DNA of 64,000 nucleotides, from contig OZ038381.1 of the NCBI GenBank assembly GCA_964036045.1, positions 128,967,708 through 129,031,707 of the forward strand. The letters run 5' to 3'. Source of the stretch: Eutreptiella sp. 'Long Island Sound 2002' (Eukaryota; Euglenozoa; Euglenophyceae; Eutreptiales; Eutreptiaceae). Positions 9,614 to 38,463 of this stretch are shown here, piece by piece. The notes below the pieces were generated by a model that did no database searches, was not told the DNA's origin, and saw only the letters and a program-made list of their open reading frames with translations. The position numbers and the translations under genes are program-made. The first letter of the stretch is position 1. Every line of letters begins with the position of its first letter.

Positions 9614-9627
9614 ACATACTGAGGGGC
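9614..9627. repeat. Left target-site duplication of the giant LINE
   Basis: ACATACTGAGGGGC here is identical to 30611-30624. The left copy completes the element B codons before the break and the right copy starts the continuation, so the duplication arose when the giant element inserted. Confidence 0.93.
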
Positions 9628-9839
9628 GCACATAGCGAACGAGCAAGGGGCGCACATAGAGGAAGGGACACGGCGGGCACACGGCGAGCACAACACCGCA
9701 CCGAGACACCGGAGAGGGGAGCACCGGAGGACCAAGGAAAGAGCAGCACCACGCACCACGACACGCACGGCACAGGCACCACACACACCGCACACACCCA
9801 ACGAACCCCGACAACCCACCCGGCAGTGGGCGGGCAGAC

Positions 9840-12800
9840 GGGAGAGGGACAGCGCCTGACCCCAAGCGCCCCTCACCATGGTGGAAGGCACCCCCCCCGG
9901 GGACGCCTTTCCGCCACCCCCACAGCGAGCAACGCCGGCCCGCAAGGGCGCACGCTGTGGGGCCGGTGCCGGGCCCCCACGCCCACACCGACCGCACCCG
10001 GGACACGCGGGTCGCGGAACCCTGGCTGCACGCTCCGGAGGACGGGCAGCCGGGGGAGGGACAGCGCCTGGCACCAGGCGCCCCTCACAACGGTGGAGGA
10101 CAGCCCCCCCCGGGGACGCCCTTCCGCCACCCCCACAGCGAGCAACGCCGGCCCGCAAGGGCGCACGCTGTGGGGCCGGTGCTGGGTCCACACGCCCGCA
10201 TCGACCGCACCCGGGACACACGGGTCGCGGAACCCTGGCTGCACGCTCCGGAAGACGAGCGGCCGGGGGAGGGACAGCGCCTGGCACCAAGCGCCCCTCA
10301 CAACGGTGGAAGGCAGCCCCCCCCGGGGACGCCCTTCCGCCACCCCCACAGCGAGCAACGCCGGCCCGCAAGGGCGCACGCTGTGGGGCCGGTGCTGGGT
10401 CCACACGCCCGCATCGACCGCACCCGGGACACACGGGTCGCGGAACTCTGGCTGCACGCTCCGGAGGACGAGCGGCCGGGGGAGGGGCAGCGCCTGACAC
10501 CAGGCGCCCCTCACAACGGTGGAAGGCACCCCCCCCGGGGACGCCCTTCCGCCACCCCCACAGCGAGCAACACCGGCCCGCAAGGGCGCACGCTGTGGGG
10601 CCGGTGCTGGGTCCACACGCCCGCATCGACCGCACCCGGGACACACGGGTCGCAGAACCCTGGCTGCGCGCTCCGGAGGACGAGCAGCCGGGGGAGGGAC
10701 AGCGCCTGACACCAGGCGCCCCTCACAACGGTGGAAGGCAGCCCCCCCCGGGGACACCCTTCCGCCACCCCCACAGCGAGCAACGCCGGCCCGCAAGGGC
10801 GCACGCTGTGGGGCCGGTGCTGGGTCCACACGCCCGCATCGACCGCACCCGGGACACACGGGTCGCGGAACCCTGGCTGCACGCTCCGGAGGACGAGCGG
10901 CCGGGGGAGGGGCAGCGCCTGACACCAGGCGCCCCTCACAACGGTGGAAGGCACCCCCCCCGGGGACGCCCTTCCGCCACCCCCACAGCGAGCAACGCCG
11001 GCCCGCAAGGGCGCACGCTGTGGGGCTGGTGCTGGGTCCACACGCCCGCATCGACCGCACCCGGGACACACGGGTCGCGGAACCCTGGCTGCGCGCTCCG
11101 GAGGACGAGCAGCCGGGGGAGGGACAGCGCCTGACACCAGGCGCCCCTCACAACGGTGGAAGGCACCCCCCCCGGGGATGCCCTTCTGCCGCCCCCACAG
11201 CGAGCAACGCCGGCCCGCAAGGGCGCACGCTGTGGGGCCGGTGCTGGGTCCACACGCCCGCATCGACCGCACCCGGGACACACGGGTCGCGGAACCCTGG
11301 CTGCACGCTCCGGAGGACGGGCAGCCGGGGGAGTGACAGCGCCTGACACCAGGCGCCCCTCACGACGGTGGAAGGCACCCCCCCCGGGGACGCCCTTCCG
11401 CCACCCCCATAGCGAGCAACGCCAGCCCGCAAGGGCGCACGCTGTGGGGCCGGTGCTGGGTCCACACGCCCGCATCGACCGCACCCGGGACACGCGGGTC
11501 GCGGAACCCTAGCTGCACGCTCCGGAGGACGAGCGGCCGGGGGAGGGACAGCGCCTGACACCAGGCGCCCCTCACAACGGCGGGAGGCAGCCCCCCCGGG
11601 GACGCCCTTCCGCCACCCCCACAGCGAGCAGCGCCGGCCCGCAAGGGCGCACGCTGTGGGGCCGGTGCTGGGTCCACACGCCCACATAAACCGCGCCCGG
11701 GACACGCGGGTCGCGGAGCCCTGGCGGCACGCTCCAGAGGACGAGCGGCCGGGGGAGGGACAGCGCCTGACACCAGGCGCCCCTCACAACGGTGGAAGGC
11801 ACCCCCCCCGGGGACGCCCTTCCGCCACCCCCACAGCGAGCAACGCCAGCCCACAAGGGCGCACGCTGTGGGGCCGGTGCTGGGTCCACACGCCCGCACC
11901 GACCGCACCCGGGACACACGGGTCGCGGAACCCTGGCTGCACGCTCCGGAGGACGAGCGGCCGGGGAAGGGACAGCGCCTGACACCAGGCGCCCCTCACA
12001 ACGGTGGAAGGCACCCCCCCCGGGGACGCCCTTCCGCCACCCCCACAGCGAGCAACGCCGGCCCGCAAGGGCACACGCTGCGGGGCCGGTGCTGGGTCCA
12101 CACGCCCGCATCGACCGCACCCGGGATACACGGGTCGCAGAACCCCGGCGGCGCGCTCCAAAGGACGAGCGGCCGGGGGAGGAACAGCGCCTGACGCCAG
12201 ACGCCCCTCACAACGGTGGAAGGCACCCCCCCCGGGGGCGCCCCTCCACCACCCCCACAGCGAGCAACGCCGGCCCGCAAGGGCGCACGCTGTGGGGCCG
12301 GTGCTGGGTCCACACGCCCGCACCGACCGCGCCCGGAACACGCGGGTCGCGGAACCCTGGCTGCACGCACCGGAGGACGAGCGGCCGGGGGAGGGACAGC
12401 GCCTGACACCAGGCGCCCCTCACAACGGTGGAAGGCACCCCCTCCGGGGACGCCCTTCCGCCACCCCCACAGCGAGCAACGCCGGCCCGCAAGGGCGCAC
12501 GCTGTGAGGCCGGCGCTGGGTCCACACGCCCACATCGACCGCACCCGGGACACGCGGGTCACGGAACCCTGGCTGCACGCTCCGGAGGACGAGCGGCCGG
12601 GGGAGGGACAGCGCCTGACACCAGGCGCCCCTCACAACGGTGGAAGGCACCCCCCCCGGGGACGCCCTTCCGCCACCCCCACAGCGAGCAACACCGGCCC
12701 GCAAGGGCGCACGCTGTGGGGCCGGTGCTGGGTCCACACGCCCGCATCGACCGCCCCCGGGACACGCGGGTCGCGGAACCCTGGCTGCACGCTCCGGAAG

Positions 12801-13755
12801 ACGAGTGGCCGGGGGAGGGACAGCGCCTGACACCAGGCGCCCCTCACGACGGTGGAAGGCACCCCCCCCGGGGACGCCCTTCCGCCACCCCCACAGCGAG
12901 CAACGCCGGCCCGCAAGGGCGCACGCCGTGGGGCCGGTACTGGGTCCACACGCCCACATCGACCGCGCCCGGGACACGCGGGTCGCGGAACCCTGGCTGC
13001 GCGCTCCGGAGGACGAGCGGCCAGGGAAGGGACAGCGCCTGACACCAGGCGCCCCTCACAACGGTGGAAAGCACCCCCCCCGGGGACGCCATTCCGCCAG
13101 CCCCACAGCGAGCAGCGTCGGCCCGCGAAGGCGCACGCTGTGGGACCGGTGCTGGGTCCACACGCCCGCATCGACCGCGCCCGGGACACACGGGTCGCGG
13201 AACCCTGGCTGCACGCTACGGAGGGCGAGCGCGGCCGGGGGAGGGACAGCGCCTGACACCAGGCGCCCCTCACAACGGTGGAAGGCACCCCCCCGGGGAC
13301 GCCCTCCCGCCACCCCCACAGCGAGCAACGCCGGCCCGCAAGGGCGCACGCTGTGGGGCCGGTGCTGGGTCCACATGCCCGCATCGACCGCACCCGGGAC
13401 ACGCGGGTCGCGGAACCCTGGCTGCACGCTCCGGAGGACGAGCGGCCGAGGAAGGGACGGCGCCTGACACCAGGCGCCCCTCGCAACGGTGGAAGGCACC
13501 CCCCCCGGGGGCGCCCTCCCGCCACCCCCACGGCGAGCAACGCCGGCCCGCAAGGGCACACGCTGTGGGGCCGGTGCAGGGTCCACTGCCCGCACCGACC
13601 GCGCCCGGGACACGCGGGTCGCGGAACCCTGGCTGCACGCTCCGGAGGACGAGCGGCCGGGGAAGGGACAGCGCCTAACACCGGACGCCCCTCGCAACAC
13701 TGGAAGGCGCCCCCCCGGGGATGCCCATCCACCGCCCCCACACCGAGCAACGCAC
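9840..13755 (+). repeat. 5' array of about eighteen and a half 212-bp monomers
   Basis: The word GACAGCGCCTGACACCAGGC or a close variant recurs about every 212 bp, near 9847, 10058, 10272, 10484 and onward to 13668. That gives eighteen full periods and a partial last unit, with unit lengths of 211-214 bp. The first unit is the most diverged. Each unit has a C7-8 G4 run (GGCACCCCCCCCGGGG) and an alternating GC-rich core. Because 212 is not a multiple of three, the long open frames here on both strands are composition artefacts. By position this resembles the promoter monomers at the 5' end of rodent L1 elements, so a promoter role is inferred. Confidence 0.92.
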
Positions 13756-13825
13756 CAACGCACCAACGCACCAGCCACGGGACATCCGCACCCCGCCCCC
13801 TGCTCTTAGACACAGCGACATAGCA

Positions 13826-16800
13826 ATGGCGGAACCCGCGGCACCACGCAAGACACGCCCCCGATCTCCGACGCTGGACGAAGCACACGAGGTCATCAGG
13901 GCGCTGGGACTCAGAGACGGCGAGGGAGACCCCCCACAAGAGGACGCGGGCGCAGACTCCGACCTGGAGGCATTGCCGGAGCCCCCCGCGGGGGGCCACC
14001 CGCGGAGCCTGCGCCGCCGGCGGGCAGCGTATCCGCGATCTGCCCCGCGTGGAAACGGGGCCATTGCACCGGCGAAGGCTGGTGCCCCAGACAGCACCCC
14101 CAGCCCGATGCCGACGACGGAGCGTTGCCCGAGGTGAAACCCGCGGCCGCACGCGCCGCCCTACGCTACGGGGTGACGCAGGGCTGGATCCTGGATGAGA
14201 CCGCGCGCGGCAGCGTGAACATCCAGGAGGCCGTCGACCGCGTCACCCACGCGGGACAGGCGGCGGTGGCCCTGCACACCCGGGGCCGCCACGGTGGACC
14301 CGCAGAGGGGATCATTGTGGATCCCTCGGGAATGGTGCTGGTCCTGGCGGCGGACATGGCCCGAGGGGTGCTCCACGTGTCCCGCGTGCGGCGGGCGTGC
14401 CCACAGTGGACCATCCAGGTGTACACCCCCCCGCGGGCGTGGCCCTTTTCCACATGGGCGGTACTCGCCGTCATGTGGCACCTGGCACCAGAGGACGCCC
14501 CCACAGGGACCGCGGAGGACATCGCCCGGGACCTCCACACCTGGCCGGCCGACCAGGAATACCCCTGGCGCAGGCCCCGGGGCGGCCTCCCGGTGGCACC
14601 AGCGGCGGAGGGGCTCAGCCTCGCGGCAACCCTCCAACGGCACCCCGACAAGTATGCACGCCACTTCCTGCAGACGGGCACGGTCCCGGCCGCCCCGCCA
14701 GACTCCGAGTGGCGATGGGATGCAGGGGTGGCGCAACCACTGCCGGGCCCCTGGACCCTCCCGTTGTGGTACTTACCAATGGGCACCTTGGCCCACGCCA
14801 CCCAGGCCTTCAAGGGGGCTTTCCCGCAGCCGCCCCTCCCCGGCGTGGCCCTGCTCCGCAGCCTGCAGGCGGGGGCCGCCTGGGTACGGTGGAGGGAAGG
14901 GAAGGAACGCTCGAGCCCCTATTTCCCCATGGTCCAAGGCCAGGCGCTGATTCATGCCGAGGGCATGGGGACCGTGGAATGGGGGGCGATCGTGCCCGGC
15001 ACGGCGTGCAGGTGGATAACGGCGGCCGCCCCGCAGCCCATGCGGTCGCCGCCGGCGTGCCACCGCCTCCTACGGATGGTCCCCTCATTGGCCCCCCAGC
15101 ACGCCCTTACAAGGGACGTGTGGAAAGCCGTACTGAGCCACACCAGGGAGTGGCTGACGAACCCGGGTACGCGGTACCCGCCGGGACCGGTGCTCGAACA
15201 GCTCACGGCCCCCACACCCGGGGTCCTCCACGCCCTACACAGGGCGTCGGCCCTCACGAAGCAGCTCAACGACGAAGTGCTGGACCTGGCGCTGGAGCCG
15301 CTGCGGGTGCTCTACCCGCAGGCACACATCCCACCCGCGGGCACGTCCAACCGCCTAGGCCGCCTGGGGTTGCAGCGTCGCGTCGAGGCCGCGCACCCAG
15401 GAGGCGTGGTGGAACAGTGGCTAACGCTCCGCAATCCGTCCGCCGCGGAGGGCCACTGGTACCTGCACCAGCTCCTCTTCCAGCCACGGGCAGCCCCGGA
15501 ACACCGCCGGCAGGACCCGTACCACACGCACCCGGAGCGCCGGGGCGCGCAAAACTACCCGCAGCCAATCCCGCCCGCCCTCCCGCCGGGGCAGGGCCCG
15601 GAGGCGCTGCAGCGGGGCCCCCCGCTCGACACCGCCACCACGCTACAGCAGTGGGGAGGCGACGATGCGAGCGGTGCCGAACCGGACTGCACGAACTGCG
15701 GAGCGGTGGCCTGGATGGCAGCCTGCAGGCACCTCACCCGAGATACCACGGGACTCCGGCAGTACAGACCCACGGACCGCACGGCGCTGGCGTCCGCGGT
15801 CGCGGCCGTCACCATGGGTCCAGTGGCGGCGTGGCCGGCGCAGCTGCTGCCCCACGTCCCCTGCCGCGACACGCGGCCCCGTCGGCCGGCCGCGACACAC
15901 GAGCCGACGGCGCCCCTCACGGCGGAGCAACTATACGTCGTCGCGGCGGCTTTGCTAGCGGACGGCGGGGAAAGCTTCGTCCACCACCACGGCCCGGCGC
16001 AAATTGCGGGATGCATACAAGGGCCCCAGCGCGATGCACCAGACCCGTGGCATGCCACACTCCGCGGGCGCACCCGCGTCTGGGGTGCGGGCGATGGCGC
16101 ACCCCCGCCCGGGCCTAAGCAGGGGGAGGCGCTGGTACTGCAGACGGCAGGATACCAAGCCATCGTACACGGCCACGCCGGGGGGTACCGGTCGCACGTC
16201 CTGGCCGGAGGCCGATGGGCGGTCTGGCACAGCACCGCCAGGCAAGGGGCATTCCCGCCCCTGTCCCACGTCGACTGGCGACAGGGGCCCACCCAGGCCT
16301 ACTACATGTCGGCGGACCCCTGTCCGCTGGCGGTCCTGCTGCACACGGTCAGCGCCCCCAACAAGAGGCAGGAACCGGGGTGGGTCAACCCCCCCGCACT
16401 GGTGTGGAGCCCCGACCAGGAGGAGCATCTACGGGCCGCGTGGCAGGGAGACGCCATCAGGGCCACGGACGTCCCGGACCTCCACGCGGGGCCCATCACG
16501 CACGCCCGCCCAGCGGCTACCCTGGCGGTGGCCCAACGGGGGCAGCAGAACCCACAGTGGGTGGTCTGCATGTTCAGCCCGGCGGACGCGCACGTCGTCG
16601 TCTGCGACCCTGAACGCCTGCCGGGGCCCGAAGCCGTGATCCGCGTGACAGACTGCACACGCATGATCATCAAGGCGCTGCGGGAGGGCGAACACCACGC
16701 CCTCCTGCTCCAGGTCAGGCTGAAGGACAACGCCCGGGCGGCGAGGCCGGGAGTGTGGCCGGCAGCGGCGCACCCCGCCGACCTGGAGCTCCAGCTGGCG

Positions 16801-17520
16801 GTCCCGACCACGGTGTACCACTGGCTACAGGCCTTCCACGACCTGCGGTGGAGGGGCAAACCCGACCGCCAAATCGGCTCCACGCACTGGCAAACGTGGC
16901 TGCAAGCAGACGTGCAGCGCGACGCCATCCGAAGCCTCCGGCCCGCGCCCGCGACGCGAGCCCTCGATGCGGCGGCCCCGGGCCGCACGCTGGCACCACA
17001 CACGGTGCCGCTGGCCAACCTGCCCTGCGAACCAGCGGCGGAGGGCGCCATTCGGAAGTCGGTGCAGCTCCCCCCGGCACGAGGGGCCACGGAGCCGACG
17101 AAATGCCCCCTGTGTGCGGACAAGTACTACACCAGCGGGGCGATGCTGGAACACCTGGCGTGGCACGCGGTGCACGCTGCGGCCCCGGCGGACGACCAGG
17201 AGGCGGCCGCCAACATCCTGCAGGGGAGAGCACGGAGGTCCCCGTGGCACGCCCCGTACACCCGGCGCCCCCCGCCCCAGGCAGCCGACCACGCAGATGG
17301 GGGCGAGGAGGCACCCGGAGCGGCCCCGGGGGCCGGCGGTGCGGCCCCACCAGGGCCCATGTCCATCCCCGCGGGGCTGGCCCCCCTGGCCCCCCTGACT
17401 CCCCCGGTCCCCCGGGCCCCCTTGTGGGCCCCGCTGGGAACGGGCTCAGCGGATGCGGCGCACCCAGATGCCCTGGCGGCACCAGCGAACCCGGCGGCGA
17501 TGCCGACGCGGGATAGCTGA
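13826..17520 (+). CDS. Giant LINE ORF1: zinc fingers flanking a ULP1-like cysteine protease
   Basis: The start is ATG 13826 (MAEPAAPRK). The frame must shift by -1, or the sequence lost or gained a base, in the C6-G6 run at 13982-13995 to join the long frame that ends at TGA 17518. That long frame has no ATG before about 14332. The joined product is about 1230 residues. Visible features in order: a CCCH finger (C-x7-C-x5-C-x3-H, 14041-14097); a ULP1/SENP (C48) protease pattern with LNDEVL (about 15265), GHW (His codon 15454) and NCG (Cys codon 15697, followed by an RHL); a Gly- and His-rich segment near 16140-16240; and a C2H2 finger (C-x2-C-x12-H-x3-H, about 17104-17170). Family members remove SUMO or process proteins; here it could mature the polyprotein or act on host SUMO. 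The oxyanion Gln is not obvious. Nucleic-acid binding by the fingers is inferred. Confidence 0.8.
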
Positions 17521-20500: not shown

Positions 20501-23500
20501 ACCACCGCGCAACTTCCGTGCGCGCGGAGGTCACCAAGATGTTCTGGGAGATAGCCGGCGCGCACGGAATATGCCCTGAGGTGCACCACCCCGTCCCGGA
20601 GTTCGCAACTCTGGCGGGAGGCGACTGGGTCCAGCGCATACCCCGGGCCCTGGCCGCCCTGGGAGTGGGGCTGTACAACCCCATCGAGTGCCCCAGGGCG
20701 GCTCATGTCCAACTACAGTCCCCGCCGGGCAAAATCGTCACGCTGCGCACCGCCAAGCTGCGACACCGCGACACGTGCCGCCTGACGGTGCCACACGCAA
20801 CGCCGTGGCATGGGCACCACGGGCCACGCCACCCCTTCCCCGACAACGACGATCCATGGCCGACGGCGGTGCGGGAGTGCCTCGACCAATGCGCCGATGA
20901 ACACCTCCATTATTGCCGCCATGAGCAAGGGCCCACCAACCACCCCGGGTGGCGCGATGCCCTGGCCCACCTCTTCCACACCACCGGCACGCGGGACCCC
21001 CGCCTGAGACTCGTCCACCCCACGAGGGCTAAGCAGGACGCCCACACCGGCCCACGGGTGACCCCAGACGGCCTGCACCTCCACGTCGGGGGCTACCGCC
21101 GCCGGAACGGCCTGTCCCCCCCCACGCGGGGGGCGGCGTACCACCCGCCAGCAGCCCTCATGTACATCCTCCGCGACGTACTCGCGGAAAGCGAGCACCA
21201 AGAGCCCAACGCGGACGTGGCGTGGCCAGAGCCTTTACGCCCCCGGCCCCACGCGCCGATGCCGTTGTGGCTGGTGACCACAGACGACCAATGCACCCAA
21301 GCGGCGGGACAAGCGCAGCTCCGGGCCGAGTGGGTGATAGTGCAAGTGGGGGCAGGCCAGCCCGAACCCCGTGGACTCCCCCGTGGCACCGCCCTACTGG
21401 TGGCTACGGGGGTGCCGCACGACCCACACATGGCGGTGCACGCGCTGGAGGACCGTCCGGAGGACACAGGACACTTGGTGGTACACCAGCGCGGGGGCCC
21501 GGCGTGGCTCAAGGAACATGTGACGGCGCTACGGTCCTGGGCAAGCACGGTCGCCGGAGCGGAGATCCGGCTGCACGACCACCCGGCGATCAGCCCAGGC
21601 GACACCAGGGCGCTGAGCATGGACCAACTGACCCACAGCCACCCCGACGTCCGGTGGCACTCCACCGACCTCAACGCGGGGTGGCTCAGCCCCACCGGAT
21701 ACTACTGGATCCCGGAGGCCTGGGGACACACCTCCTCTGACGCATCCGGGGGCGGACCCTGCAAACACGCCACCAGCGTCGCTCTCGCCGCCGACCTCAC
21801 CCGCACGTGGGCGGTGGCCATCTCGGGCACGGTGCCTGACGGAGAGGGGGTGGCCGCCTCCCTCCCCCTACACTACGGTGCACACAGACCATGGGTCCAC
21901 ACGGTGGACGCCGAGGTCATCCTCCACCTCCTGCGGCACGCAGATCGCGAGCGAACCACGGGGGTCCCCGCGGGCGCAGCGAAGGTGGTCAACCAGATGC
22001 CCCTGAGGTGGCTCCGGGACGGCCTGTGCGCGCGGGGGCAACACGCCGGGCACCCGTTCTGGTACGTCCGAGCCACCTCGCACCACAGTGACGCCCTACT
22101 GCACAAGGCGGACTGGGCGGCGTCCCAGGACACCGTCTTGCAGAACACGCCCCCGGACCCTGGCCACGCCCAACTCATCGTCGCCGGCCGTGACGGCCAT
22201 CTCGATCTACGGCCCCCCACGATGCGGGTGCTCGGCGAGGTCGCACAACGGGCGCAGACGGACCATGCGCTGACGCACCGGGGACACACGCCTCTGGGCG
22301 CGGCCCACGCCACGGCCTACGTCCACGCCCGGGACCTCACCGCGGCGGCCACCAACCGCCGGGCGCTGCGGGCCCGAGACGGCCACACGCCGGTGCAGCG
22401 CAGGCTCCGCGTCCGGAAGGAGCGGCTCTCCGGCGTCGCCATCGTCCCGCAGCCGTGCCTTTTCTGCGGCGGCCCGGAAGAGACCCCGGTGCACATGCAC
22501 GTGGGCTGCACCCACTCGCGGCTCCTCTGGCCCCACTACCGCCAGGCGGTGCACGAGGCGGCCCGCCACCTCCCACCTGGGGACAAGGCCCTGTGGGTGG
22601 CCTCGTGGCGCTCCGCAGGCGCCACGTGGACGGAGGTGTTCTGCTCCGGACTGGTGCCCGAGGACGCGGAGGCGCAGCTCCGCGCCATAACCCGATACGA
22701 CCCGCCGGGAGGGACCTCGGTGGACGACTTCCTCCACCACATGCTCCGGCTAGGGGATTTCGCGTGGGAGCTTCGCAACCACCGGCTGGAGCAACTCCTC
22801 CACGACCCCCTAAGCGCGGCGGCCCGGGCGCACCGGTGGCTCACTGCGGCGGAGGGCGACCACCCTCCCCCTCCCCCGCGCCCTGACAAGGACTTCGTAG
22901 CCTCCCTCCGTGTTGTGAATGGCACTCTGGAGTGCCCACTCCCAGAGGGCCCCCACCCGTATCAGGACCTGCCGGGGGGGTTCTCGAAGCACCTACAAGA
23001 CGCCCTTTTCCCACCGTGGATCATCGGGCGCGGCTCCATGACCGCATGGGAGGCGCGCATCGTGGGAGAGGAGTGGGCGCGGGAGTGGGACCGGTGGTGC
23101 GCCGCCACGCGCGCCCCGGAGACCCCTGCGCAACGATACGCCGCCATCCCGCTCCGGGGGTGGGGGCCGGACACCCGGCCGAGACCCACCATGGTCCGAG
23201 GGGCGGGACCTGACCACCCGTGGGACGCGGCGACAGGGGAATGGCTGCAGGCGGCCCCAGGGGCCGCAAACGGGATGGACCCGGGACGTATCCTCACTCG
23301 TCAGGATGCCCGTCCCGCCCCGCATCGTCCTTCACACCGCCAACGTGCTCCGGGCCACGGAGATACGCACGTGGGGACACGCTGCGGCCACCGTCCGGTG
23401 GCAACCCCCAGAGGACGGGGCCACCCAACTCACTGTGGCGCACTTCAAAGCGGGGGGACCGGTATACGACGACGCCCTGTCCCGGCTGGGCGACACCCAG

Positions 23501-23778
23501 GGGCCCTTACTCCTCATGCTCCCCACCGGTATCGCAGCCGCGCTGCGCCAGGAACTGGACGGCTGCGAAGGGCTGCGAGTGGGGTGGGAAGCGGTCGCGG
23601 ACAGCACCCTACTGGCCCTCCTCCACAGGGACACCGCGAACGGGTGCCAATGGGACGCGCTGACGCCCCACCTCACCGGGCGCCACGTGTACATGGCGAG
23701 CCCCCCCCAGGGGCACCCCCGCCCGTCGTGGGACGACCTCATCGCCGCCTTCCACGACCACGGGATCCTCCCCGGTGA
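17521..23778 (+). CDS. Giant LINE ORF2: APE endonuclease, reverse transcriptase, RNase H, CCHC
   Basis: The frame is the same as ORF1 and starts straight after its TGA. The first in-frame ATG (17671) lies downstream of the essential APE motif WNLRNG (17563-17580), so translation must enter by UGA readthrough or a non-AUG start. APE residues are all present: WN, QET (17707), GDTN (18082), RVD (about 18226) and SDHLP (about 18319). RT shows motif A FDARKAFD (about 19640), motif B RQGNPESPLL (about 19820), motif C YIDD (about 19933) and PYLGLQL. An RNase H pattern follows (SDAS about 21736, DAE about 21910, HxxxxxxKAD about 22080), then C-x2-C-x8-H-x4-C at about 22456-22515. No restriction-like endonuclease was seen. 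After about 23306 the frame turns Arg/Pro/His-rich and is probably not the native reading. It supplies target nicking and cDNA synthesis. Confidence 0.92.
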   Translation, partial: LQEDTTGDALWLLSWNLRNGLVPPDRSLRDTLRRRRGPAACTDKEHLITGMLPQEGGFAIMLQETGIATRAQEMHVAAALRDKGYTAYFSSRLAETGATSTSRGGGLLTAVSSKYVAEHEVLSFTEIVPGKAAALEIRTDGGGLTLINVHGPQAGCSPWAGRAAFWADIQMYATARSLGGRHPVIIAGDTNIYMDVPANPATEHFRAGWEACGFRRAAAGGEEDMTPTLHPSQHRVDTFLVNEPLLPWSLRGSVWARGMAHPQVVGSDHLPVRLALPGLLSAAGHAAMPTPYSHTEGRLLPYDAEAAPVQHCLWAAVTAAQDEPSLAPWLGPAEQHDYGSMPAAAVDKVFEHLHATHDALARVVGRRQPSPAGTDPAEGDPPESGKQLQAAVPRYDTLAARAPAAYQADAARHGIRSEAALRLTEELQSVSPGFRPTTQGQLQEELERQAAALEEDIRQLRALLAADRKRAIKEFWRRHAPDIAQRWKAVRGAIEVEAPGPSGLWNVRVPNTQTLLTEAHDVMFAVRAFWRELYDKRPVDLPGFQAVLGRHVPRVPEGAWTQVQQYSMQDLKSALDKADGKAPGPNHVEARFIKALPAPVQWLLVHSYRAILRGAPPPMHWRDAHIWLSPKVPGSARLDDYRPIALGQLDMKLLTGPLTQRITEVLTRHGVVSDWQQGALPGSNTGPPLFMAQRQLQRGRPNYVFSFDARKAFDTAPHGALHLILRHLSVPPDVIDLLLFLHTCARLRIVTAHGLTQPVYMLRGVRQGNPESPLLYALLLEPLLRAQGHRLRPPGGAEHGLIQAYIDDLLVVAHTLQHFVEGVEAVAAYLGMMGMELNPRKCAMATTEGVPGLQLRLCPHLENPWYWVPAADSVPYLGLQLQPDGEFSLQRKHRLRLAAVHHWCLNTLAPPKVVQDVILAILGGVTQYVAPFIADDSDTARHLDHITVQVAKDRARYAFDASRDSLQDDRTLGLTRVPTRCQQAAVALVGTLVHHRATSVRAEVTKMFWEIAGAHGICPEVHHPVPEFATLAGGDWVQRIPRALAALGVGLYNPIECPRAAHVQLQSPPGKIVTLRTAKLRHRDTCRLTVPHATPWHGHHGPRHPFPDNDDPWPTAVRECLDQCADEHLHYCRHEQGPTNHPGWRDALAHLFHTTGTRDPRLRLVHPTRAKQDAHTGPRVTPDGLHLHVGGYRRRNGLSPPTRGAAYHPPAALMYILRDVLAESEHQEPNADVAWPEPLRPRPHAPMPLWLVTTDDQCTQAAGQAQLRAEWVIVQVGAGQPEPRGLPRGTALLVATGVPHDPHMAVHALEDRPEDTGHLVVHQRGGPAWLKEHVTALRSWASTVAGAEIRLHDHPAISPGDTRALSMDQLTHSHPDVRWHSTDLNAGWLSPTGYYWIPEAWGHTSSDASGGGPCKHATSVALAADLTRTWAVAISGTVPDGEGVAASLPLHYGAHRPWVHTVDAEVILHLLRHADRERTTGVPAGAAKVVNQMPLRWLRDGLCARGQHAGHPFWYVRATSHHSDALLHKADWAASQDTVLQNTPPDPGHAQLIVAGRDGHLDLRPPTMRVLGEVAQRAQTDHALTHRGHTPLGAAHATAYVHARDLTAAATNRRALRARDGHTPVQRRLRVRKERLSGVAIVPQPCLFCGGPEETPVHMHVGCTHSRLLWPHYRQAVHEAARHLPPGDKALWVASWRSAGATWTEVFCSGLVPEDAEAQLRAITRYDPPGGTSVDDFLHHMLRLGDFAWELRNHRLEQLLHDPLSAAARAHRWLTAAEGDHPPPPPRPDKDFVASLRVVNGTLECPLPEGPHPYQDLPGGFSKHLQDALFPPWIIGRGSMTAWEARIVGEEWAREWDRWCAATRAPETPAQRYAAIPLRGWGPDTRPRPTMVRGAGPDHPWDAATGEWLQAAPGAANGMDPGRILTRQDARPAPHRPSHRQRAPGHGDTHVGTRCGHRPVATPRGRGHPTHCGALQSGGTGIRRRPVPAGRHPGALTPHAPHRYRSRAAPGTGRLRRAASGVGSGRGQHPTGPPPQGHRERVPMGRADAPPHRAPRVHGEPPPGAPPPVVGRPHRRLPRPRDPPR

Positions 23779-24217
23779 CACGTGGCAGGAGGTCCAGCGG
23801 AAGACGCTTGGCAAGGACTACCGGCGCCGCGTCCGCGCCCGCTTGTTGGAGATCCGGGACCCCCTCCGACAGAGGTGGGACGACCTCTGGCTCCGCCATC
23901 TCGACCCTTGGTCGCCGCCCTCCCACCTCCCGCACACCTGCCGACTCTGCGGAGAGTGTGACACGGTGTCCTCCGCAGCAGCGACAGGCGCCAACAGGTG
24001 CGAGCGGTGCACCCAGGTAGCCGCGTGCCCCTGGCCCGAACCTCCCGCAGGTCCGCGCAGGCGCACAGAGGAGGAGGCCTTGCGCCGGCGCATCGAGGGG
24101 GCACACACCCCCTCACACGAACAGGCGGGCCCCGCGGGCGCTGCCCTTCTATGGATCCACGTGCACCTGCGGGACCCCACATCCATTGCGCACCTGTCGC
24201 ACGTGTTCGCCCCCTAA
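23306..24217 (+). CDS. Giant LINE ORF3: unknown, with a possible zinc ribbon
   Basis: 303 codons from ATG 23306 to TAA 24215, in the +1 frame relative to ORF2 and overlapping its last 470 bases. The composition is protein-like here while ORF2's own frame looks non-native, so this is either a separate ORF or the true ORF2 C-terminus reached by a frameshift near 23300. Toward the end, CRLC and CERC (about 23940-24010) form a C-x2-C...C-x2-C pattern that could bind zinc. Before that is a basic helix-like stretch (KDYRRRVRARLLEIRD). I recognise no family. Confidence 0.7.
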   Translation: MPVPPRIVLHTANVLRATEIRTWGHAAATVRWQPPEDGATQLTVAHFKAGGPVYDDALSRLGDTQGPLLLMLPTGIAAALRQELDGCEGLRVGWEAVADSTLLALLHRDTANGCQWDALTPHLTGRHVYMASPPQGHPRPSWDDLIAAFHDHGILPGDTWQEVQRKTLGKDYRRRVRARLLEIRDPLRQRWDDLWLRHLDPWSPPSHLPHTCRLCGECDTVSSAAATGANRCERCTQVAACPWPEPPAGPRRRTEEEALRRRIEGAHTPSHEQAGPAGAALLWIHVHLRDPTSIAHLSHVFAP

Positions 24218-24256
24218 CCCCCACCCGCCGCCCCCCTTTGCAGAGCCCGCAGCACC

Positions 24257-25786
24257 ATGCCACGCCGACGGGGGGATGGGCCGGGACACGCCAGGGCCCG
24301 CCGCAGAGCGCAGGAGGCGGCCGTCCGGGGCCTGGTGGCGGACGCGGTGTCGGAGGCAAAAGGAGCGCACGCTGCCGCACGGTGCGACCTGGAGGGCAGT
24401 GCGAGGGCCTTCCTCAACGAGACCGCCCTCCCGGCCGTCCGCGCCCTGAACGGAGCGGGAGCCCCTACGTTGCTCCCGGCAATGCACCGGATCGTGAACG
24501 CCGTCCGGCCGGGGCTCATCAGCCCGGAAGCGGCCCTCTACGGGCACTGGATGGAGTGGCGCGAGTCCAATCGGTCGGGCCGGCCCCTGTCCATGGGGGA
24601 CGCCCTCCGGCTGACGGGAGCGGGGTCTGCCATGTCCCTCCGCAGTAGCGCCCCAGCCCTGCTGCACGCCCTCAGGACGCGCTACCCCGGGGACGCGGCC
24701 CCGTACCTGAACCAGGCGCGGGCCACGTACCCGGGGGGAGTGTCCGAGCTGGATGCGGCGCTCCACCTTCTACACCCGCCGGACGAGGACCTGGAGGTGG
24801 GCGAAATCACGGTGTTCGTGGAAGGCGCGGACGAGGCGCCCGCCCGCCCCCGGCCGACCAACCCGGTGTATGACGGCACCGGGCCTACCCCCCCGTACGC
24901 CGTCGTCTACGAGGCGTTCCCCAGGGAGCCCACTTGGTGCCCCGCCCTCCCACCGGCGACGCACGCGCCCCGCGGCTGGGCTAACCCAGACCTGTCCCCC
25001 CCCCTCTCCAGGACCAGGGGTGCCCACCACAGGGGGCAGGTCCTCTGGCAAGAGTGCCCTGGCACCCCCCTCCTCCTCCTCGTCGTCGCGTCCCGCGGGG
25101 GCTCGGGGCGGATCCTGGGGATCACCCCCACCCACCTCTATGGGGCCACACCTGTACCCCGCCCCCCCCTCCCGGCGCCCGCGGCGCGGGACGGAGTACA
25201 CACCTTCCTGCGCACACAGGAGGTCACCGCCGTTACGGGGGTCCATCTGGTGCGGCTGCCCCCGGCACCGCTCGACGACCCCCGGGGGCCGAGGGCCCTG
25301 AGCCCCGTCCCAGACTGGGAGCTGTGGCGCGACGCGTGGGCCGCGTGGCTCCCCCGCCTCCCCTCCCAATGCCGGTGGATGGCCGCGGACCCCCGGCCGT
25401 GCGGGGCTGACGCCACAGCCGGCCCCCCACCCCCTCCCCCCCCCCCCCCGCAGAGCACCACACGGCACTGCCCACGGCACGGCACTGATGCACCAGGAGG
25501 TAGTGGGAAGGGCGCGCCTGCCACCACGCATGCCTACCAGAGTGACAGTAATGGCAGACTCCGATGGGTCCCTCGGGCGGGACGACCGCCACCACCGCCG
25601 GTCCCGCTCCCGCTCCCCCGTCTCCTCCCCAGAGTGGACGGGGGAGACCCTCGCGGAGCGCGAGGAGCGGAGGCTGGCGGAGGCGGCGGTGGTCGGACCG
25701 CCGCCGCCGGCCCGGGAACCTGGGCCAGCCGAGACGGCCGCCCCCGCCGCCCAAGCGGCCAGCCCCGCCGCCCCGCCCCGCCCTGA
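24257..25786 (+). CDS. Giant LINE ORF4: unknown, basic N-terminus
   Basis: ATG 24257 follows the ORF3 stop by 39 nt in the same frame. The product opens with MPRRRGDG and more Arg/Ala-rich sequence, then about 360 residues of mixed composition with no motif I can name. After the 14-base C run at 25436-25449 the frame becomes a Pro/Arg/Gly stretch. If that run has changed length by one, the protein instead ends at TGA 25486-25488, which overlaps the ORF5 ATG as TGATG. I think that is the native end, giving about 411 residues. Function unknown. Confidence 0.65.
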   Translation: MPRRRGDGPGHARARRRAQEAAVRGLVADAVSEAKGAHAAARCDLEGSARAFLNETALPAVRALNGAGAPTLLPAMHRIVNAVRPGLISPEAALYGHWMEWRESNRSGRPLSMGDALRLTGAGSAMSLRSSAPALLHALRTRYPGDAAPYLNQARATYPGGVSELDAALHLLHPPDEDLEVGEITVFVEGADEAPARPRPTNPVYDGTGPTPPYAVVYEAFPREPTWCPALPPATHAPRGWANPDLSPPLSRTRGAHHRGQVLWQECPGTPLLLLVVASRGGSGRILGITPTHLYGATPVPRPPLPAPAARDGVHTFLRTQEVTAVTGVHLVRLPPAPLDDPRGPRALSPVPDWELWRDAWAAWLPRLPSQCRWMAADPRPCGADATAGPPPPPPPPPQSTTRHCPRHGTDAPGGSGKGAPATTHAYQSDSNGRLRWVPRAGRPPPPPVPLPLPRLLPRVDGGDPRGARGAEAGGGGGGRTAAAGPGTWASRDGRPRRPSGQPRRPAPP

Positions 25787-27572
25787 CGCGCAGGAGGCGG
25801 AGACCGCGGCGAGCCACGCCGCGGCCCCGGCCGCGGCCCCCGGCACACCGCCGGCAAGGGGGGCAGCCCCGGCGCAGGAGCCGGACGCGTCGCCGAGGGC
25901 TGCCGCGGCCGCGCAGGAGAGCAAGCAGGGCGCAAGAGGGGTTGCGACGGACCCTGCACGGGCCGTGGGCGCCTCGCCGACGGCCGCCGCGGCAGCAGCG
26001 AAGACCGAGAAGGATGTGCGAGAGTCTGCGACCGCGGCCACGGGCGCCTCGTCGGCGGCCGCCGCGGCGGCGAAGGAGAGTGCGGAGGGCGCGAGAGGGG
26101 CTGCGGCCCCCGGCACGCCGCGCAAGCGGGGGAAGAACCCCGCACGGGCCGCGGACGCCTCGCCGGCGGCCGCCGCAGCAGCAGCAGTGGGCAGGGAGAG
26201 CGCGAAGTACAGCGCCCACGCCAACCCCGCCCACACCCACACCAGCCCCCCCAAGCCGTACCCCCCCAAGCCCTTCCCCCCGGGGCGGGAGCGGCACGTC
26301 CGCCCCCCGGCGCGCGAGCGCTCGCCGCCGGGCGTCACGCTGCCGCAACTGCAAAGGCAGCGGGACGCCCGGCGAGTGGTCCAGGAAGGGCGCAGCGGCG
26401 AGGGGGAAGGGAGCGGCGGACGGCGTGACAGGCAGGGGGCAGGGGAGGGGTCGGGGCACGGGAAGGGCGCGCGGGAGCGCGGGCAGGGGGCCCAGGTGCA
26501 GGGGACGGAGCGAGGGGTGGTGGGAGAGCGAGCGGGCCGGGGCGTGGTGGACGAGAGGCGGGACCCGCGACTCGGGCAGGGGGCCGGGGAGGGGCCAGGG
26601 CACGGGAAGGGTGTTCAGGGGCGCGGGCAGGGTACCCAGGCGCAGGGGGCTGGACAAGGGGGGATGGGAGAGCGAGCGGGCCGAGGTGTGGGGGACGAGA
26701 GGCGGGACCCGCGACATGGGCACGGGACCGGAAAGGGGCCCAAGGGCAAGGGCAAGGGCAAGGGCAAGGGCCCCAAGGGACAGGAGGGACGGGGCACGGG
26801 AGCCCAGGGGGGAGGGCGGGGCGAGGGGAGGGGGGCAGAGGGCGGGGCACCCCCGCAGCCGGAAGTGCAGCCGGTGAGGTGCATCCCCCCCGGCATCCAA
26901 CAGATGCCGGCACACCACACCTACCACCACCACCACCACCACCACCACCACCTCTACAACATCGACCCTGACGCCGGCGAGCTCATCCCCCCCCAACCCC
27001 CACGACACCAGCACCAGCAAGCCCCCCCCGCGCCGAGGGCGGAGCCGGCGCGGGTGGCCTCGGCGGAGGGGGGACGGGGCGTGGCACCGGCGCCGCAGGT
27101 GCAGGAGCAGCGAGGGGGGCCGGCACAGGGGGCGGAGGAGAGCCGGCCGTGGAACGTGGACTGGGGCGCAGTCCCGGACCCGCTGGGGGGGGAGACCCTC
27201 CCCCTGGTGGGGGAAGTGTACGGGTGGTTGTGCTGGGCCAACCAGGGGACCTCCAGGAGGTCGCGGAACCGGCCCTTCGATGCCGTGCTCCTCCGGAGGG
27301 ACGGAGGACACCGAGAGGCACCCCCGGGGGGGTGGGCGGCACCAGAGGACCACGAGAGGGTCCTCAGGTCAGTGATCCGGGCGGCGTGGCCCGACAGGGA
27401 GCCGACGTGGCCGGCCTTCCTGGAGGGGGGAGCGGTGCTCCGCATCACGGATGCGGACGCCAACAACTGGCTCCCCCGGGCTTTGCGTAGCGCCCTCGCC
27501 CACTGGCGCTACCGCCGGCACAACCCGCCGCCGCCGCAGCCCCAACCCCCACACAAGCGGCGGCGCAAGTGA
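25488..27572 (+). CDS. Giant LINE ORF5: low-complexity RS/Ala/Gly-rich basic protein
   Basis: Open from ATG 25488 to TGA 27570 (694 codons); ATG 25551 (MADSDGSLGR) is an alternative start with a cleaner N-terminus. The order is: an RS-type patch (HHRRSRSRSPVSSPEW), a long Ala/Pro/Glu region with three imperfect poly-Ala blocks, an Arg/Gly/Gln-rich region containing a DNA-level repeat (GERAGRGV..DERRDPR twice, about 26520-26720), a (GK)n run, a run of about ten His (about 26925-26955), a more ordered C-terminal part (about 27140-27500) and a terminal KRRRK. It looks like an RNA-binding or nuclear-targeting accessory protein, but that is inference from composition only. Confidence 0.62.
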   Translation: MHQEVVGRARLPPRMPTRVTVMADSDGSLGRDDRHHRRSRSRSPVSSPEWTGETLAEREERRLAEAAVVGPPPPAREPGPAETAAPAAQAASPAAPPRPDAQEAETAASHAAAPAAAPGTPPARGAAPAQEPDASPRAAAAAQESKQGARGVATDPARAVGASPTAAAAAAKTEKDVRESATAATGASSAAAAAAKESAEGARGAAAPGTPRKRGKNPARAADASPAAAAAAAVGRESAKYSAHANPAHTHTSPPKPYPPKPFPPGRERHVRPPARERSPPGVTLPQLQRQRDARRVVQEGRSGEGEGSGGRRDRQGAGEGSGHGKGARERGQGAQVQGTERGVVGERAGRGVVDERRDPRLGQGAGEGPGHGKGVQGRGQGTQAQGAGQGGMGERAGRGVGDERRDPRHGHGTGKGPKGKGKGKGKGPKGQEGRGTGAQGGGRGEGRGAEGGAPPQPEVQPVRCIPPGIQQMPAHHTYHHHHHHHHHLYNIDPDAGELIPPQPPRHQHQQAPPAPRAEPARVASAEGGRGVAPAPQVQEQRGGPAQGAEESRPWNVDWGAVPDPLGGETLPLVGEVYGWLCWANQGTSRRSRNRPFDAVLLRRDGGHREAPPGGWAAPEDHERVLRSVIRAAWPDREPTWPAFLEGGAVLRITDADANNWLPRALRSALAHWRYRRHNPPPPQPQPPHKRRRK

Positions 27573-27711
27573 CGGCCCAGACGGCGGGCACGGGAGGGGG
27601 GGATGGGCCCCCTGACCCACGCCCCCCCCACGGTACGGCGCGACGTGCGGGGACGCGCCGCCACCCGCGGGAGGGAGTGCGGGGGCGCCAAGCGCGGGGA
27701 GGAACCGGCTG

Positions 27712-28507
27712 CCCCGCAACCTGCTAACCACTGACCGCTAACCATCAGCCACCCCCGGCCGGCCGGCGCCGCGCGGCAGCGGCCGGGGAGGTGAGGGCCC
27801 CGGCGAGGGCCTGCGCGGGCATCCAGCTCTCGATGGGGGGGGCGGATGACGGGCGCGACCCCTTGGCCGATGGCTGGCCCCCGGGACCAGGGCCGCCATG
27901 CCGCCCCCGCCCCCCCCCAACGCGCACGACGGAGCAGGAAGGAGGCCGCGCCCCACATGACCCTCCCGTAACCACGGCCCGCTCCGAGGTGACGGAGGGA
28001 GGGTGTCAAGTCAGATGAGGCCCCCAGGGGGGCGGTCCACGGGCCGCCCCTCACCCCCCCCACCCCGGGGCGGCATTTCAGCCCCGACCGCAAGCGCGCG
28101 CCGGAAGGGAGAGCACCGGCGACGCGGAGAGAGCCAGGTAGGAGTACCACAGGCCGCCGCCTGGAACGAGAGCAGGGAGGCCGCGGCGCGACACCCCCCC
28201 CCCCCCCCCCGCCCCCCCGCCGGCCCGCCGGCCGCAGGGGCCCCGGCCCCCACCCCCCGAGGCTGAAGGGACGGACCCCCCCGCCCGAGAGGGGAGCCGG
28301 AGTGTGACCCGCCCCGACGCCCCAGCCGCCGGCTCCAATGGGGGCCGCGAAGAGCAAGTGGGCCCGCGCCTGCGCACCGGGACGCCGCGCAGATCGTGCC
28401 CAGAGAAGCCGGGTGGGCGCGAACCGGAATGGTATGGGTGGCCACGCCCCCCATGGACAGCACGACGCCAAGGGACGCCCGCTTTGTTGCCTACCCAGGG
28501 AAAGCGG
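27712..28507 (+). repeat. Giant LINE 3' region, long direct repeat unit 1
   Basis: This unit starts at CCCCGCAACC followed by TAACCACTGACCGCT. It contains the words TTGGCCGATGGCTGGCCCCC, GGAACGAGAGC, GAGCCGGAGTGTGACCCGCC and CGCCCGCTTTGTTGCC. All recur in the same order in the following unit at an offset of about 796 bp at the start. No protein-like frame is present. Confidence 0.85.
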
Positions 28508-29487
28508 CCCCGCAACCCGATAACCACTGACCGCTGACCCTCACGGCCACCCCCGGCCGGCCAGCGCCGCGCGGCAACGGCCGGGAGATGAGGGGCCCCA
28601 GGGAGGGACCGCGTGAGGATCCGGCACTCGGTAGAGGGGGGCGGGGGAAGGGCGCGACCCCCCTGGCCGATGGCTGGCCCCCAGGGGTTGGGGCCGCCAA
28701 GCCGCCCTCCCCCCCCCCCCCCCTTTTTTTGGACGACAGGGGGTGTCGCCGGGGAACCGAAGGACCCCCCCAACTCCCCCCCCCCCCCCCCTCCCACACA
28801 GGCCAGCGAGCGGGGTGCCCCCCCCCCCCCCCCCCGCACCCACCCCAGCTGGGGAGCCACAGGCGGGGCCCTCCGCCCCCCCAGGGCCGGGGGGGCGCCC
28901 CCACCCACAGGAGGAACGGCGACACGGTAAGGGCAGCGGCGGCTGGACCTGCCCCCACGAACCCACACCGGCGTGCCGGAGCAACGCGCACAACGGAACG
29001 CGAAGGAGGCCGCGCCCCACATAACCCTCCCGTGACCACAGCCCACTCCGAGGGGAAAGAGGGGGGGTTTGCAGGTCAGCCGGGGCCCCCAGGGGAACGG
29101 TCCGCGGGCCGCCCCTCACCCCCCCACCGCCCCGGGGCGGCACGTCAGCCCCGACCGCACGCGCGCGCCGGAGGGGAGGGCCAGAAAGGGGTACCACAGG
29201 CCGCCGCCCGGAACGAGAGCGGGGAGGCCGCGGCGCGACACCCCCCCCGTGGCAAGGGGAATGGACCCCCCCGACCCGAGAGGGGGGCCGGAGTGTGACC
29301 CGCCCCCCCGCTCCGGCCGCCGGCCCACAAGGGGGCCGCGAAGAACAAACGGGCCCACGCCTGCGCACCGGGACGCCGCACAGATCGTACCCGGAGAGGC
29401 TGGGTGAACACGAACCGGAGTGGTATGGGGGGCCAGGCCCCCCATGGACAGCGCAACGCCAGTGACGCCCGCTTTGTTGCCTGCCCA
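28508..29487 (+). repeat. Giant LINE 3' region, long direct repeat unit 2
   Basis: This is a second copy of the preceding unit, about 980 bp because of expanded C runs and an extra C-rich block at about 28700-28930. The shared words keep their order up to CGCCCGCTTTGTTGCCTGCCCAGGGAA, after which similarity stops. The tandem duplication lies wholly in the 3' untranslated region. Confidence 0.83.
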
Positions 29488-30533
29488 GGGAAGGCAGAGG
29501 GACGGAAAGAGGCAGAGCGACCCCCCGCCCTACAGTCAGTCGGCGACCCGGTGGTGCTACTGCCCGCCTCTTACCCCAGTGCACGTCAGTCGGCGATCCA
29601 ACGCACCCCACCCAGCCCCCTCCCCAGTCCCGACCCCGGGCGCGTGGACTGCGCGTGGACGGCGCACAGCCCCACCCTCAGGGCAGGATACATAGCCGAC
29701 GTAAGAGACTCCCGCGGACGAGGGCACCCCCCCGGGGACGCCCAGCCGCCGCCCCCGCAACCCCAAGCCAAGTAGGGGGGAACCGGGACCGGACCGCCCC
29801 CCCCCAAGCACGCCAGACGGAGCACGGGACCGGGGCAGGACACGCGGAGGGGCACGGACCACATGGAACGGCCCTACCAGCGCCCAGTGCCGGGACCACG
29901 CGAGATGCGCGCGCCACACCACCCAGCGGGGAGCGGACACCGCGAGAGCGCGAGCGCACACACACGAAAAGGACACGCGGGGACCACCAGAAGGGCAACC
30001 GGACCGAGCGCGCGGAACGCACAGACCACCTGGAATGGCGTACCAGCGAGCGAGGGTAAGGGACACCCGGACGGGACGGCCCGCCACACGCAACGCGGGA
30101 TACGCGGGGCGGGAAGGGGGAAGAAGGGGAAACACAACACCAGGTACCGGCCCGAACCCCCCCGAACCGGCCGCGAGCGCCGCGCACACACAGACGGGAC
30201 ACTGCACCCGCCAAGGCAGTAGTGGCGCACAGCGCCACGCCCCAACCCCTAGGCTAGGCAGCCACCGCGCCAGCCCAAGGGGGTCCCACTGGCGACAAGC
30301 CAGTAGCACGGGCCCGGCGGCGCCGGTGCCCCGGGCGACCACGCATTAGGGGGGCGACGCAGTGGGTAAGCGCCCGCGGCCACGGCTGCGAATTGATCCA
30401 CTGACCGGGGAGTGGCGAAACGGGGACGCCGGGGAAGGACGGGGCTCCGAGCTCTGTGAACCCGGGGGACTCCGCCACCAGGCAGGAGGTGCGTCTTGGA
30501 GGGCCCCCCACTAGGACCCGGTGGGGAGGATAT

Positions 30534-30552
30534 CACCTGGCCCGACCAGGTG
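30534..30552 (+). other. 3' terminal hairpin of the giant LINE
   Basis: CACCTGG, loop CCCGA, CCAGGTG: a perfect 7-bp stem about 58 bases from the 3' end. Many LINE reverse transcriptases recognise a stem-loop next to a short 3' repeat, so this is a candidate template-recognition structure. Confidence 0.55.
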
Positions 30553-30589
30553 GCCCCCCGGGGCCGAAAGGCGTCTAGTACCCGCAAAA

Positions 30590-30610
30590 TCAAACCTCAA
30601 ACCTCAAACC
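30590..30610 (+). repeat. 3' tail, three units of TCAAACC
   Basis: Exactly three perfect TCAAACC units abut the right target-site duplication. A short tandem tail in place of poly(A) is typical of several LINE groups. Read on the other strand the unit is a rotation of TTTGAGG, seven bases long like plant and algal telomere repeats but not identical. Confidence 0.88.
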
Positions 30611-30624
30611 ACATACTGAGGGGC
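30611..30624. repeat. Right target-site duplication of the giant LINE
   Basis: Perfect copy of 9614-9627 (ACATACTGAGGGGC). It is directly followed by the continuation of element B's RT coding sequence. Confidence 0.93.
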
Positions 30625-38325: not shown

Positions 38326-38463
38326 TTTGGAAATGAATGACCTTGAACTTGTTTTCCTTGAAACTTATCCAATTTTCCTTCAAATAACCCAAAAATACAC
38401 CCCAAATGCAACCACAAAAGGCGACGGAAACATACTACGTGTTCGACGAAATCACGCGAGTGT
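38326..38463 (-). repeat. Inverted fragment of the 769-bp LTR-like repeat
   Basis: About 138 bp match, in reverse complement, the last part of the direct repeats at 50874 and 52861 (shared words include ACGTAGTATGTTTCCGTCGCC when read on the minus strand). Element C coding sequence starts right at its edge, so an insertion or rearrangement involving this family removed the 5' end of element C. Confidence 0.8.

Follow-up and report, generated by a model that had tools for sequence, protein, structure and literature searches.

A 21-kb insertion in Eutreptiella that is probably a giant APE-type LINE

In a stretch of 64,000 nucleotides from the euglenophyte Eutreptiella sp. 'Long Island Sound 2002' (GenBank assembly GCA_964036045.1, contig OZ038381.1, forward-strand positions 128,967,708 to 129,031,707; hereafter the window, numbered from its first letter) we found a block at 9628-30610 that we hold with good confidence to be one insertion of a giant non-long-terminal-repeat (non-LTR) retrotransposon of the APE type, i.e., a long interspersed nuclear element (LINE). 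The block stands out by composition (73.4% G+C versus 51.4% for both flanks together), and it does so along its whole length, as all 20 of the 1-kb segments from 10 to 30 kb have 68.5-77.9% G+C versus 41.2-63.3% in the 42 flank segments. A preliminary description of this DNA, made by a model from the letters and a list of open reading frames (ORFs), had proposed a single non-LTR retrotransposon of about 21 kb here, and the clean empty site, the high G+C throughout, the shared codon usage and the lack of a second tail bear that proposal out.

Ends of the insertion and its target

The block lies between two copies of ACATACTGAGGGGC, an exact direct duplication (14 of 14 bp identical) with no further match in the window when up to two mismatches were allowed; 20,983 bp separate the copies. 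Among 3000 randomly drawn pairs of 33-nt flank pieces (pairs less than 100 nt apart left out) no pair shared a 14-mer, and the longest common word was 11 nt. The right end of the block consists of three TCAAACC units, which are the sole match in the window to TCAAACCTCAAACC with up to two mismatches, and we found no second, inner TCAAACC tail inside the block or elsewhere in the window. The perfect duplication and the tail at the right end had both been claimed in the preliminary description and stood as claimed.

Removing the block and one copy of the duplication in silico produced an open 389-residue frame of a gypsy-type reverse transcriptase (RT), with the joint at residue 152. By BLASTP, residues 92-334 of this restored frame matched another gypsy RT of the window across the joint (28% identity, with an E-value of 6e-26 computed against three window proteins only), and the Pfam RVT_1 match is split by the insertion into profile positions 7-141 in the left flank and 146-204 in the right flank, where RNase H follows the RT remainder. 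Because the empty site restores a frame that aligns through the joint, the block ends are correct to the base, and the insertion appears to have gone into an older retrotransposon as one piece. That retrotransposon is itself decayed, its frame being broken by TAG and TGA stops; we call it gypsy-type by presumption, from sister elements in the window that carry RNase H and integrase in the same order.

At the 5' junction we also noted that AGGGGCGCACATAG is present twice, 24 bp apart (9622-9635 and 9646-9659), the first copy overlapping the end of the left duplication. This repeat may be a mark of microhomology joining or of a template jump.

Coding strand, enzymes and noncoding regions

A single strand carries the coding signal from 13826 to 27572 (13,747 bp; Table 1). 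Under a codon log-odds model from which each ORF was left out of training when it was scored, ORF1 to ORF5 gave 0.335, 0.409, 0.344, 0.349 and 0.212 per codon in the expected frames and negative values in all ten other frame-ORF combinations; the extra coding regions announced earlier are present, with ORF3, ORF4 and ORF5 positive in their own frames only. The frame switches fall at 13997-14038 (within ORF1), 23294-23297 (from ORF2 to ORF3, 10 nt 5' of the ATG at 23306) and 25399-25416 (the end of ORF4). All five ORFs have a third-position GC of 0.85-0.87, and their codon usages correlate with one another at 0.85-0.97, versus 0.46-0.54 with the interrupted gypsy, 0.62-0.64 with a gypsy-type control (gypsyB), 0.58-0.70 with an older LINE of the window and 0.77-0.91 with another gypsy-type control (gypsyA). 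With the model trained on all five ORFs, the controls scored 0.360 (gypsyA), 0.147 (gypsyB) and 0.001 (old LINE) in their own frames; since gypsyA scores like the ORFs, the model detects coding in general and not this element in particular.

ORF2 has APE upstream of RT in one frame, and Pfam recognized both domains, in agreement with the preliminary description. Ten PDB sequences matched ORF2 at E-values of 0.01 or less (four of LINE-1 ORF2, three of the R2 retrotransposon, two of a "reverse transcriptase-like protein" and one RNA-directed DNA polymerase), the best being the two "reverse transcriptase-like protein" entries (5.6e-17), which we take to be R2 of silkworm. Judged by these matches the ORF2 RT is of the LINE type; NCBIfam gave sub-threshold rows only, to group II intron RT and exonuclease III. 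ORF2 probably also carries an RNase H, read from a set of motifs. Pfam gave no RNase H match in ORF2 at E-values up to 10, and an AlphaFold2 model of this part, built with no alignment, was uninformative (pLDDT 29). An ARAGORN call of tRNA-His at 21088-21157 lies antisense within ORF2 coding sequence, and we took it as chance.

ORF1 and ORF2 form one frame split by a single TGA, which is followed by CTC. The first in-frame ATG after it (17671, ORF2 residue 51) lies within the APE domain, so that ORF2 could be translated only by readthrough, by reinitiation or from a non-AUG start, unless the TGA is decay; one copy cannot separate recoding from decay. Reassignment of TGA as a sense codon was rejected, as TGA is the terminator of ORF5 and of gypsyB, and the interrupted gypsy contains stops of either kind, TAG and TGA. 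Within ORF1 the frame change comes just after a C6/G6 stretch (13982-13995), and because of it this copy is probably inactive, to judge from its reading frames. By motif reading ORF1 has a CCCH-type finger (C-x7-C-x5-C-x3-H, ~14041-14097) and a C2H2-type finger (C-x2-C-x12-H-x3-H, ~17104-17166; a Pfam row for the latter is sub-threshold, E 0.019), and it had no PDB sequence match at E-values up to 10. Residues 581-867 hold a motif recalling USP/OTU proteases, and we do not claim a protease there: AlphaFold2 without an alignment gave a pLDDT of 39, the best Foldseek E-value was 0.53, a USP-like chain at rank 4 (E 0.81, probability 0.08) was noise, and a 212-residue piece of the region had no Pfam match.

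ORF3, ORF4 and ORF5 matched no Pfam or NCBIfam family, two sub-threshold Pfam rows for ORF3 (E 0.27 and 0.34) being set aside. The ORF4 frame is open to 25783, with a stop at 25784, and the ORF2 frame is open beyond the end of its coding signal (~23296) to 23778, overlapping ORF3. ORF5 is rich in Arg and Ser close to its start and of low complexity in its middle.

The noncoding share of the element is 7.2 kb of 21 kb (4198 bp at the 5' end and 3038 bp at the 3' end). Most of the 5' region is an array of 212-bp repeats, of which 18 aligned units are each 92-99% identical to the consensus; long ORFs listed inside the array are a product of a repeat length not divisible by three, and in the end of the array, scored from 13400 on, no stretch inside it exceeded 0.12. 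The 3' region contains blocks that are duplicated at a distance of 0.8-1.1 kb (gapped alignments give 74% and 83% identity), and no 150-nt stretch in 27650-30499 exceeded 0.10 per codon in any frame. The earlier claim of five frames on one strand with few gaps therefore survives as to the strand and the named frames and has to be amended in the rest: besides the 7.2 kb of noncoding sequence, ORF1 starts in another frame at 13826, ORF1 and ORF2 share one frame, and ORF2 overlaps ORF3.

A tRNA-like or otherwise structured 3' end was rejected, as Rfam had no match in 29900-30700 at E-values up to 5 and the last 191 nt of the element fold no better than shuffles (z -0.55). An LTR element or provirus was likewise rejected: the frames scanned in the element had no integrase family, and there are no long terminal repeats, the best match between the 5' and 3' regions being 40 bp. 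A C-rich piece of 40 bp in the 3' region (29720-29759) is similar to the 212-bp unit of the 5' array, at 85-88% in the alignment rows shown.

Table 1. Features of the insertion and of its target (window coordinates)
Feature	Positions	Strand	Remarks
Left part of interrupted gypsy-type pol (target)	8176..9613	+	RVT_1 in 9172-9627, E 8.6e-10; in-frame TGA at 9169
Left target-site duplication ACATACTGAGGGGC	9614..9627	.	exact-match scan, empty-site test
5' noncoding region	9628..13825	+	4198 bp
212-bp repeat array	9839..13753	+	18.5 head-to-tail copies; 3.9 kb
Acceptor-like pyrimidine tract ending CTCTTAG	13787..13809	+	16/20 pyrimidines; 17 nt before ORF1 ATG
ORF1	13826..17520	+	ATG 13826; frame change ~13997-14038; TGA at 17518
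ORF2	17521..23295	+	APE, RT, RNase H-like motifs, zinc knuckle
APE (Exo_endo_phos) domain of ORF2	17557..18327	+	Pfam E 1.1e-9; residues 13-269
Reverse transcriptase (RVT_1) of ORF2	19432..20163	+	Pfam E 1.5e-22; PDB sequence matches
RNase H-like D-E-D-H-D motif set	21727..22116	+	residues 1407, 1442, 1463, 1521/1522, 1531; motif reading only
CCHC zinc knuckle after RNase H-like part	22456..22509	+	motif reading; zf-RVT sub-threshold, E 0.064
ORF3	23306..24217	+	303 residues; cysteine cluster in C-terminal half
Acceptor-like tract ending TTTGCAG	24221..24243	+	16/20 pyrimidines; 14 nt before ORF4 ATG
ORF4	24257..25400	+	ATG 24257; coding signal ends ~25400
Acceptor-like tract ending CCGCAG	25431..25453	+	19/20 pyrimidines; 35 nt before ORF5 ATG
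ORF5	25488..27572	+	ATG 25488; 694 residues
3' noncoding region with duplicated blocks	27573..30589	+
3' tail (TCAAACC)x3	30590..30610	+	motif scan
Right target-site duplication ACATACTGAGGGGC	30611..30624	.	exact-match scan, empty-site test
Right part of interrupted gypsy-type pol	30625..33240	+	RT end, RNase H, sub-threshold chromodomain row; 3 in-frame stops

Expression, and one element or several

If the block is a giant LINE, its 212-bp array would be a repeated 5' promoter and leader from which a full-length RNA of ~21 kb would be transcribed, and ORF1 (with its finger motifs) and ORF2 (with APE-RT, a probable RNase H and a zinc knuckle) would make up the particle that nicks DNA. By the LINE mechanism, the bottom strand of the gypsy RT gene would have been nicked first, between 9613 and 9614; the other cut, at a distance of 14 bp, would have given the 14-bp duplication, and target-primed reverse transcription would have begun at the (TCAAACC)n tail. 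ORF3, ORF4 and ORF5 would be accessory proteins of the same element. The messages of ORF1, ORF4 and ORF5 would probably arise through splice acceptors just 5' of their start codons, with ORF2 made by readthrough or reinitiation after the ORF1 TGA.

The putative acceptors are pyrimidine tracts that end in AG. The ORF1 ATG is the first ATG after the CTCTTAG tract; the ORF3-ORF4 junction reads, in order, CTAAC (which contains the ORF3 stop), a pyrimidine tract, TTTGCAG and the ORF4 ATG; and the ORF4-ORF5 junction reads CTGAC, a C-rich tract, GCAG and the ORF5 ATG, again the first ATG. With at least 16 of 20 pyrimidines required, there are nine such sites in 13600-30610, and three of the four ATG starts (those of ORF1, ORF4 and ORF5, but not that of ORF3) lie no more than 60 nt from one, against a background of 2.6% of positions; the same three starts have one at looser cut-offs of at least 15 (16 sites, background 4.4%) and at least 14 (27 sites, background 9.2%). 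We treat splice acceptors before these ORFs as a lead suggested by the sequence, not as a test. A dinoflagellate host, suspected at first on account of similar gypsy proteins, gained no support: no DinoSL motif turned up in a scan for it, and in passages of a dinoflagellate paper on trans-splice sites the acceptor is an AG that lacks a simple consensus (PMC2488372), so that pyrimidine tracts do not mark dinoflagellates. A more far-reaching version, which we regard as possible although somewhat doubtful, is that of a polycistronic LINE in which one 21-kb RNA would be both the template and the precursor of several mRNAs, (trans-)spliced before ORF1, ORF4 and ORF5, and ORF1-ORF2(-ORF3) would be a giant readthrough product. 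Such an element would be virus-like in gene number and expression.

Several points weigh against a giant LINE of this organization. When at least 17 of 20 pyrimidines are required (five sites, background 1.3%), just one of the four starts keeps an acceptor-like site; at 16 of 20, a threshold picked after viewing and with ORF2 excluded as having no ATG start, six of the nine sites lie away from any start. ORF1 has its frame change near 14.0 kb, the in-frame TGA splits ORF1 from ORF2, and the coding signals of ORF2 and ORF4 end with no stop codon at that point. The RNase H rests on motifs that neither Pfam nor the model confirmed. From the correlation and score of gypsyA, codon usage alone is no proof of common descent. 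Finally, searches of viral, prokaryote-genome, phage and plasmid collections, in which one would not expect a LINE of eukaryotes, turned up no second copy and confirmed no relative. A tblastn search with ORF2 found no relative in phages or plasmids; viral contigs searched with ORF2, an RT piece, ORF1, ORF3, ORF4, ORF5 and a 27-nt core of the 212-bp unit yielded no confirmed relative (peptide-pattern matches in three of these scans, to 5, 1 and 423 stretches, encoded none); and prokaryote-genome contigs gave six pattern matches to ORF2 and no relative. As most of these scans use short exact peptides, and the collections are of viruses, plasmids and prokaryotes, the misses say little.

The most serious alternative, which we judge unlikely, is that a shorter LINE (the 5' region, ORF1, ORF2 and perhaps ORF3) incorporated, in one event, DNA that it had captured or that lay next to it (ORF4, ORF5 and the 3' region), or that two elements are nested. 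No family matches ORF4 or ORF5, and neither is a usual component of LINEs; each has its own ATG and acceptor-like site as an independent gene would, the codon signal of ORF5 is the weakest of the five, and similar codon usage can occur elsewhere in this genome, as in gypsyA. On the other side, ORF4 and ORF5 are close to ORF1-3 in third-position GC and codon usage, the tail motif occurs at the right end only, the outer duplication is perfect, and no 1-kb segment from 10 to 30 kb departs from the high G+C. Taken together, the G+C, the codon usage, the missing inner tail and the outer duplication favour one unit and do not prove it.

A chimeric contig or a collapsed array is far less probable still. 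The 3.9-kb array and long C-runs are difficult to assemble, and the frame changes in ORF1 and at ORF4/ORF5 lie, respectively, just after the C6/G6 stretch and next to a long C-run. The number of array copies and the frame changes of a single base may be in error; a misjoin, however, would not place both ends on one target-site duplication with an empty site that restores a gene frame, and the window has no N. We think it equally improbable that the block is another kind of retroelement, such as a Penelope-like Terminon or a virus-like retroelement, even though its size and extra ORFs recall the Terminons and giant gypsy elements treated in passages of a review (PMC6431247). The block has an APE domain, a LINE-type RT, a simple-repeat tail, a target-site duplication and an internal gypsy target, and it has no LTR. 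At gathering thresholds the window has no match to any Rfam family, a collection that includes hammerhead ribozymes.

With the giant LINE as the preferred reading, we are surest of the insertion, its ends, the LINE enzymes and the single coding strand, and least sure of the family of giant LINEs proposed in the preliminary description, the accessory functions and the splicing model. Two further claims of the preliminary description came through in part. That the insertion is recent agrees with the perfect duplication but is made less secure by the frame change in ORF1 and by the in-frame TGA; that its size is real and no patchwork is right for the insertion as assembled, but the 3.9-kb array and the repeated blocks of the 3' region may have expanded since the insertion, or the assembly may have their number wrong.

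Other elements of the window and comparison with known systems

The window holds further mobile elements. One gypsy-type pol fragment (1702-4395) has RNase H, integrase rows, a chromodomain and a third-position GC of 0.76, a second gypsy-type pol (38708-43629) has RT, RNase H and integrase rows, and a frame at 49016-50524 has two CCHC-like motifs and is gag-like by motif reading. An older broken LINE with APE and RT lies at 55803-59028; when these two proteins alone were compared, its RT and the RT of the giant element shared 27% identity (E 5e-14). We also noted inverted repeats of 70-90 bp at 38326-38462 and 53481-53618 (also 51496-51583) that are 87-99% complementary and 13-15 kb apart, and two pairs of direct repeats, each 98-99% identical (50874-51173 and 52861-53160, spaced 1987 bp; 58536-59077 and 60131-60673, spaced ~1595 bp), which may be LTRs or the product of recent duplication.

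LINEs are generally regarded as compact, with one or two genes, and those with APE and RT are usually 3-8 kb long; a polycistronic LINE of 21 kb would exceed in size any LINE known to us. If our reading is true, target-primed reverse transcription can copy 20-kb templates (here a 21-kb LINE with a 13.7-kb coding strand), and LINEs can acquire accessory genes, as gypsy elements and Terminons do. It would also bring within reach of experiment the expression of more than two proteins by a LINE and the functions of those that were added. Mouse L1 has 5' tandem monomers and is alike in the ~200-bp repeats stacked before ORF1; its composition and coding content differ, and the promoter role of the array here is putative.

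No giant APE-type LINE was named among the literature matches listed (for example the best 25 of 244 and the best 15 of 326, these two mostly unrelated), and a prior description may exist. A 2019 review devoted to giant transposons lists giant retroelements of the LTR and Penelope-like kinds and, in 12 of its 18 matching passages, no giant APE-type LINE (PMC6431247). Terminons, as described in those passages, are giant multi-ORF Penelope-like retroelements of up to 40 kb and in that respect alike, but they have a Penelope-like RT and no APE and are telomeric (PMC6431247). Rotifer LTR elements with a varied ORF3 share the placing of accessory ORFs after pol, theirs being said to be expressed from spliced messages, and differ in having LTRs and an integrase, according to the relevant excerpts of their description (PMC5408684). 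NeSL and Utopia LINEs, which in some cases encode an additional Ulp1-like protease, are alike as LINEs with an added protein domain; from the sections that treat them, they use a restriction-like endonuclease, whereas the added genes here match no family (PMC4640811). There is also a likeness in parts to the APE-type LINEs with RNase H (the I group; plant L1, Proto1 and Dualen LINEs also carry RNase H in the portions of that account concerned), which have in common with the present element APE, RT, RNase H-like motifs (here a motif reading), a zinc knuckle, a target-site duplication and a simple-repeat tail (PMC4640811). The Eutreptiella element differs from them in its length of ~21 kb, its three extra coding regions and its 3.9-kb tandem 5' array.

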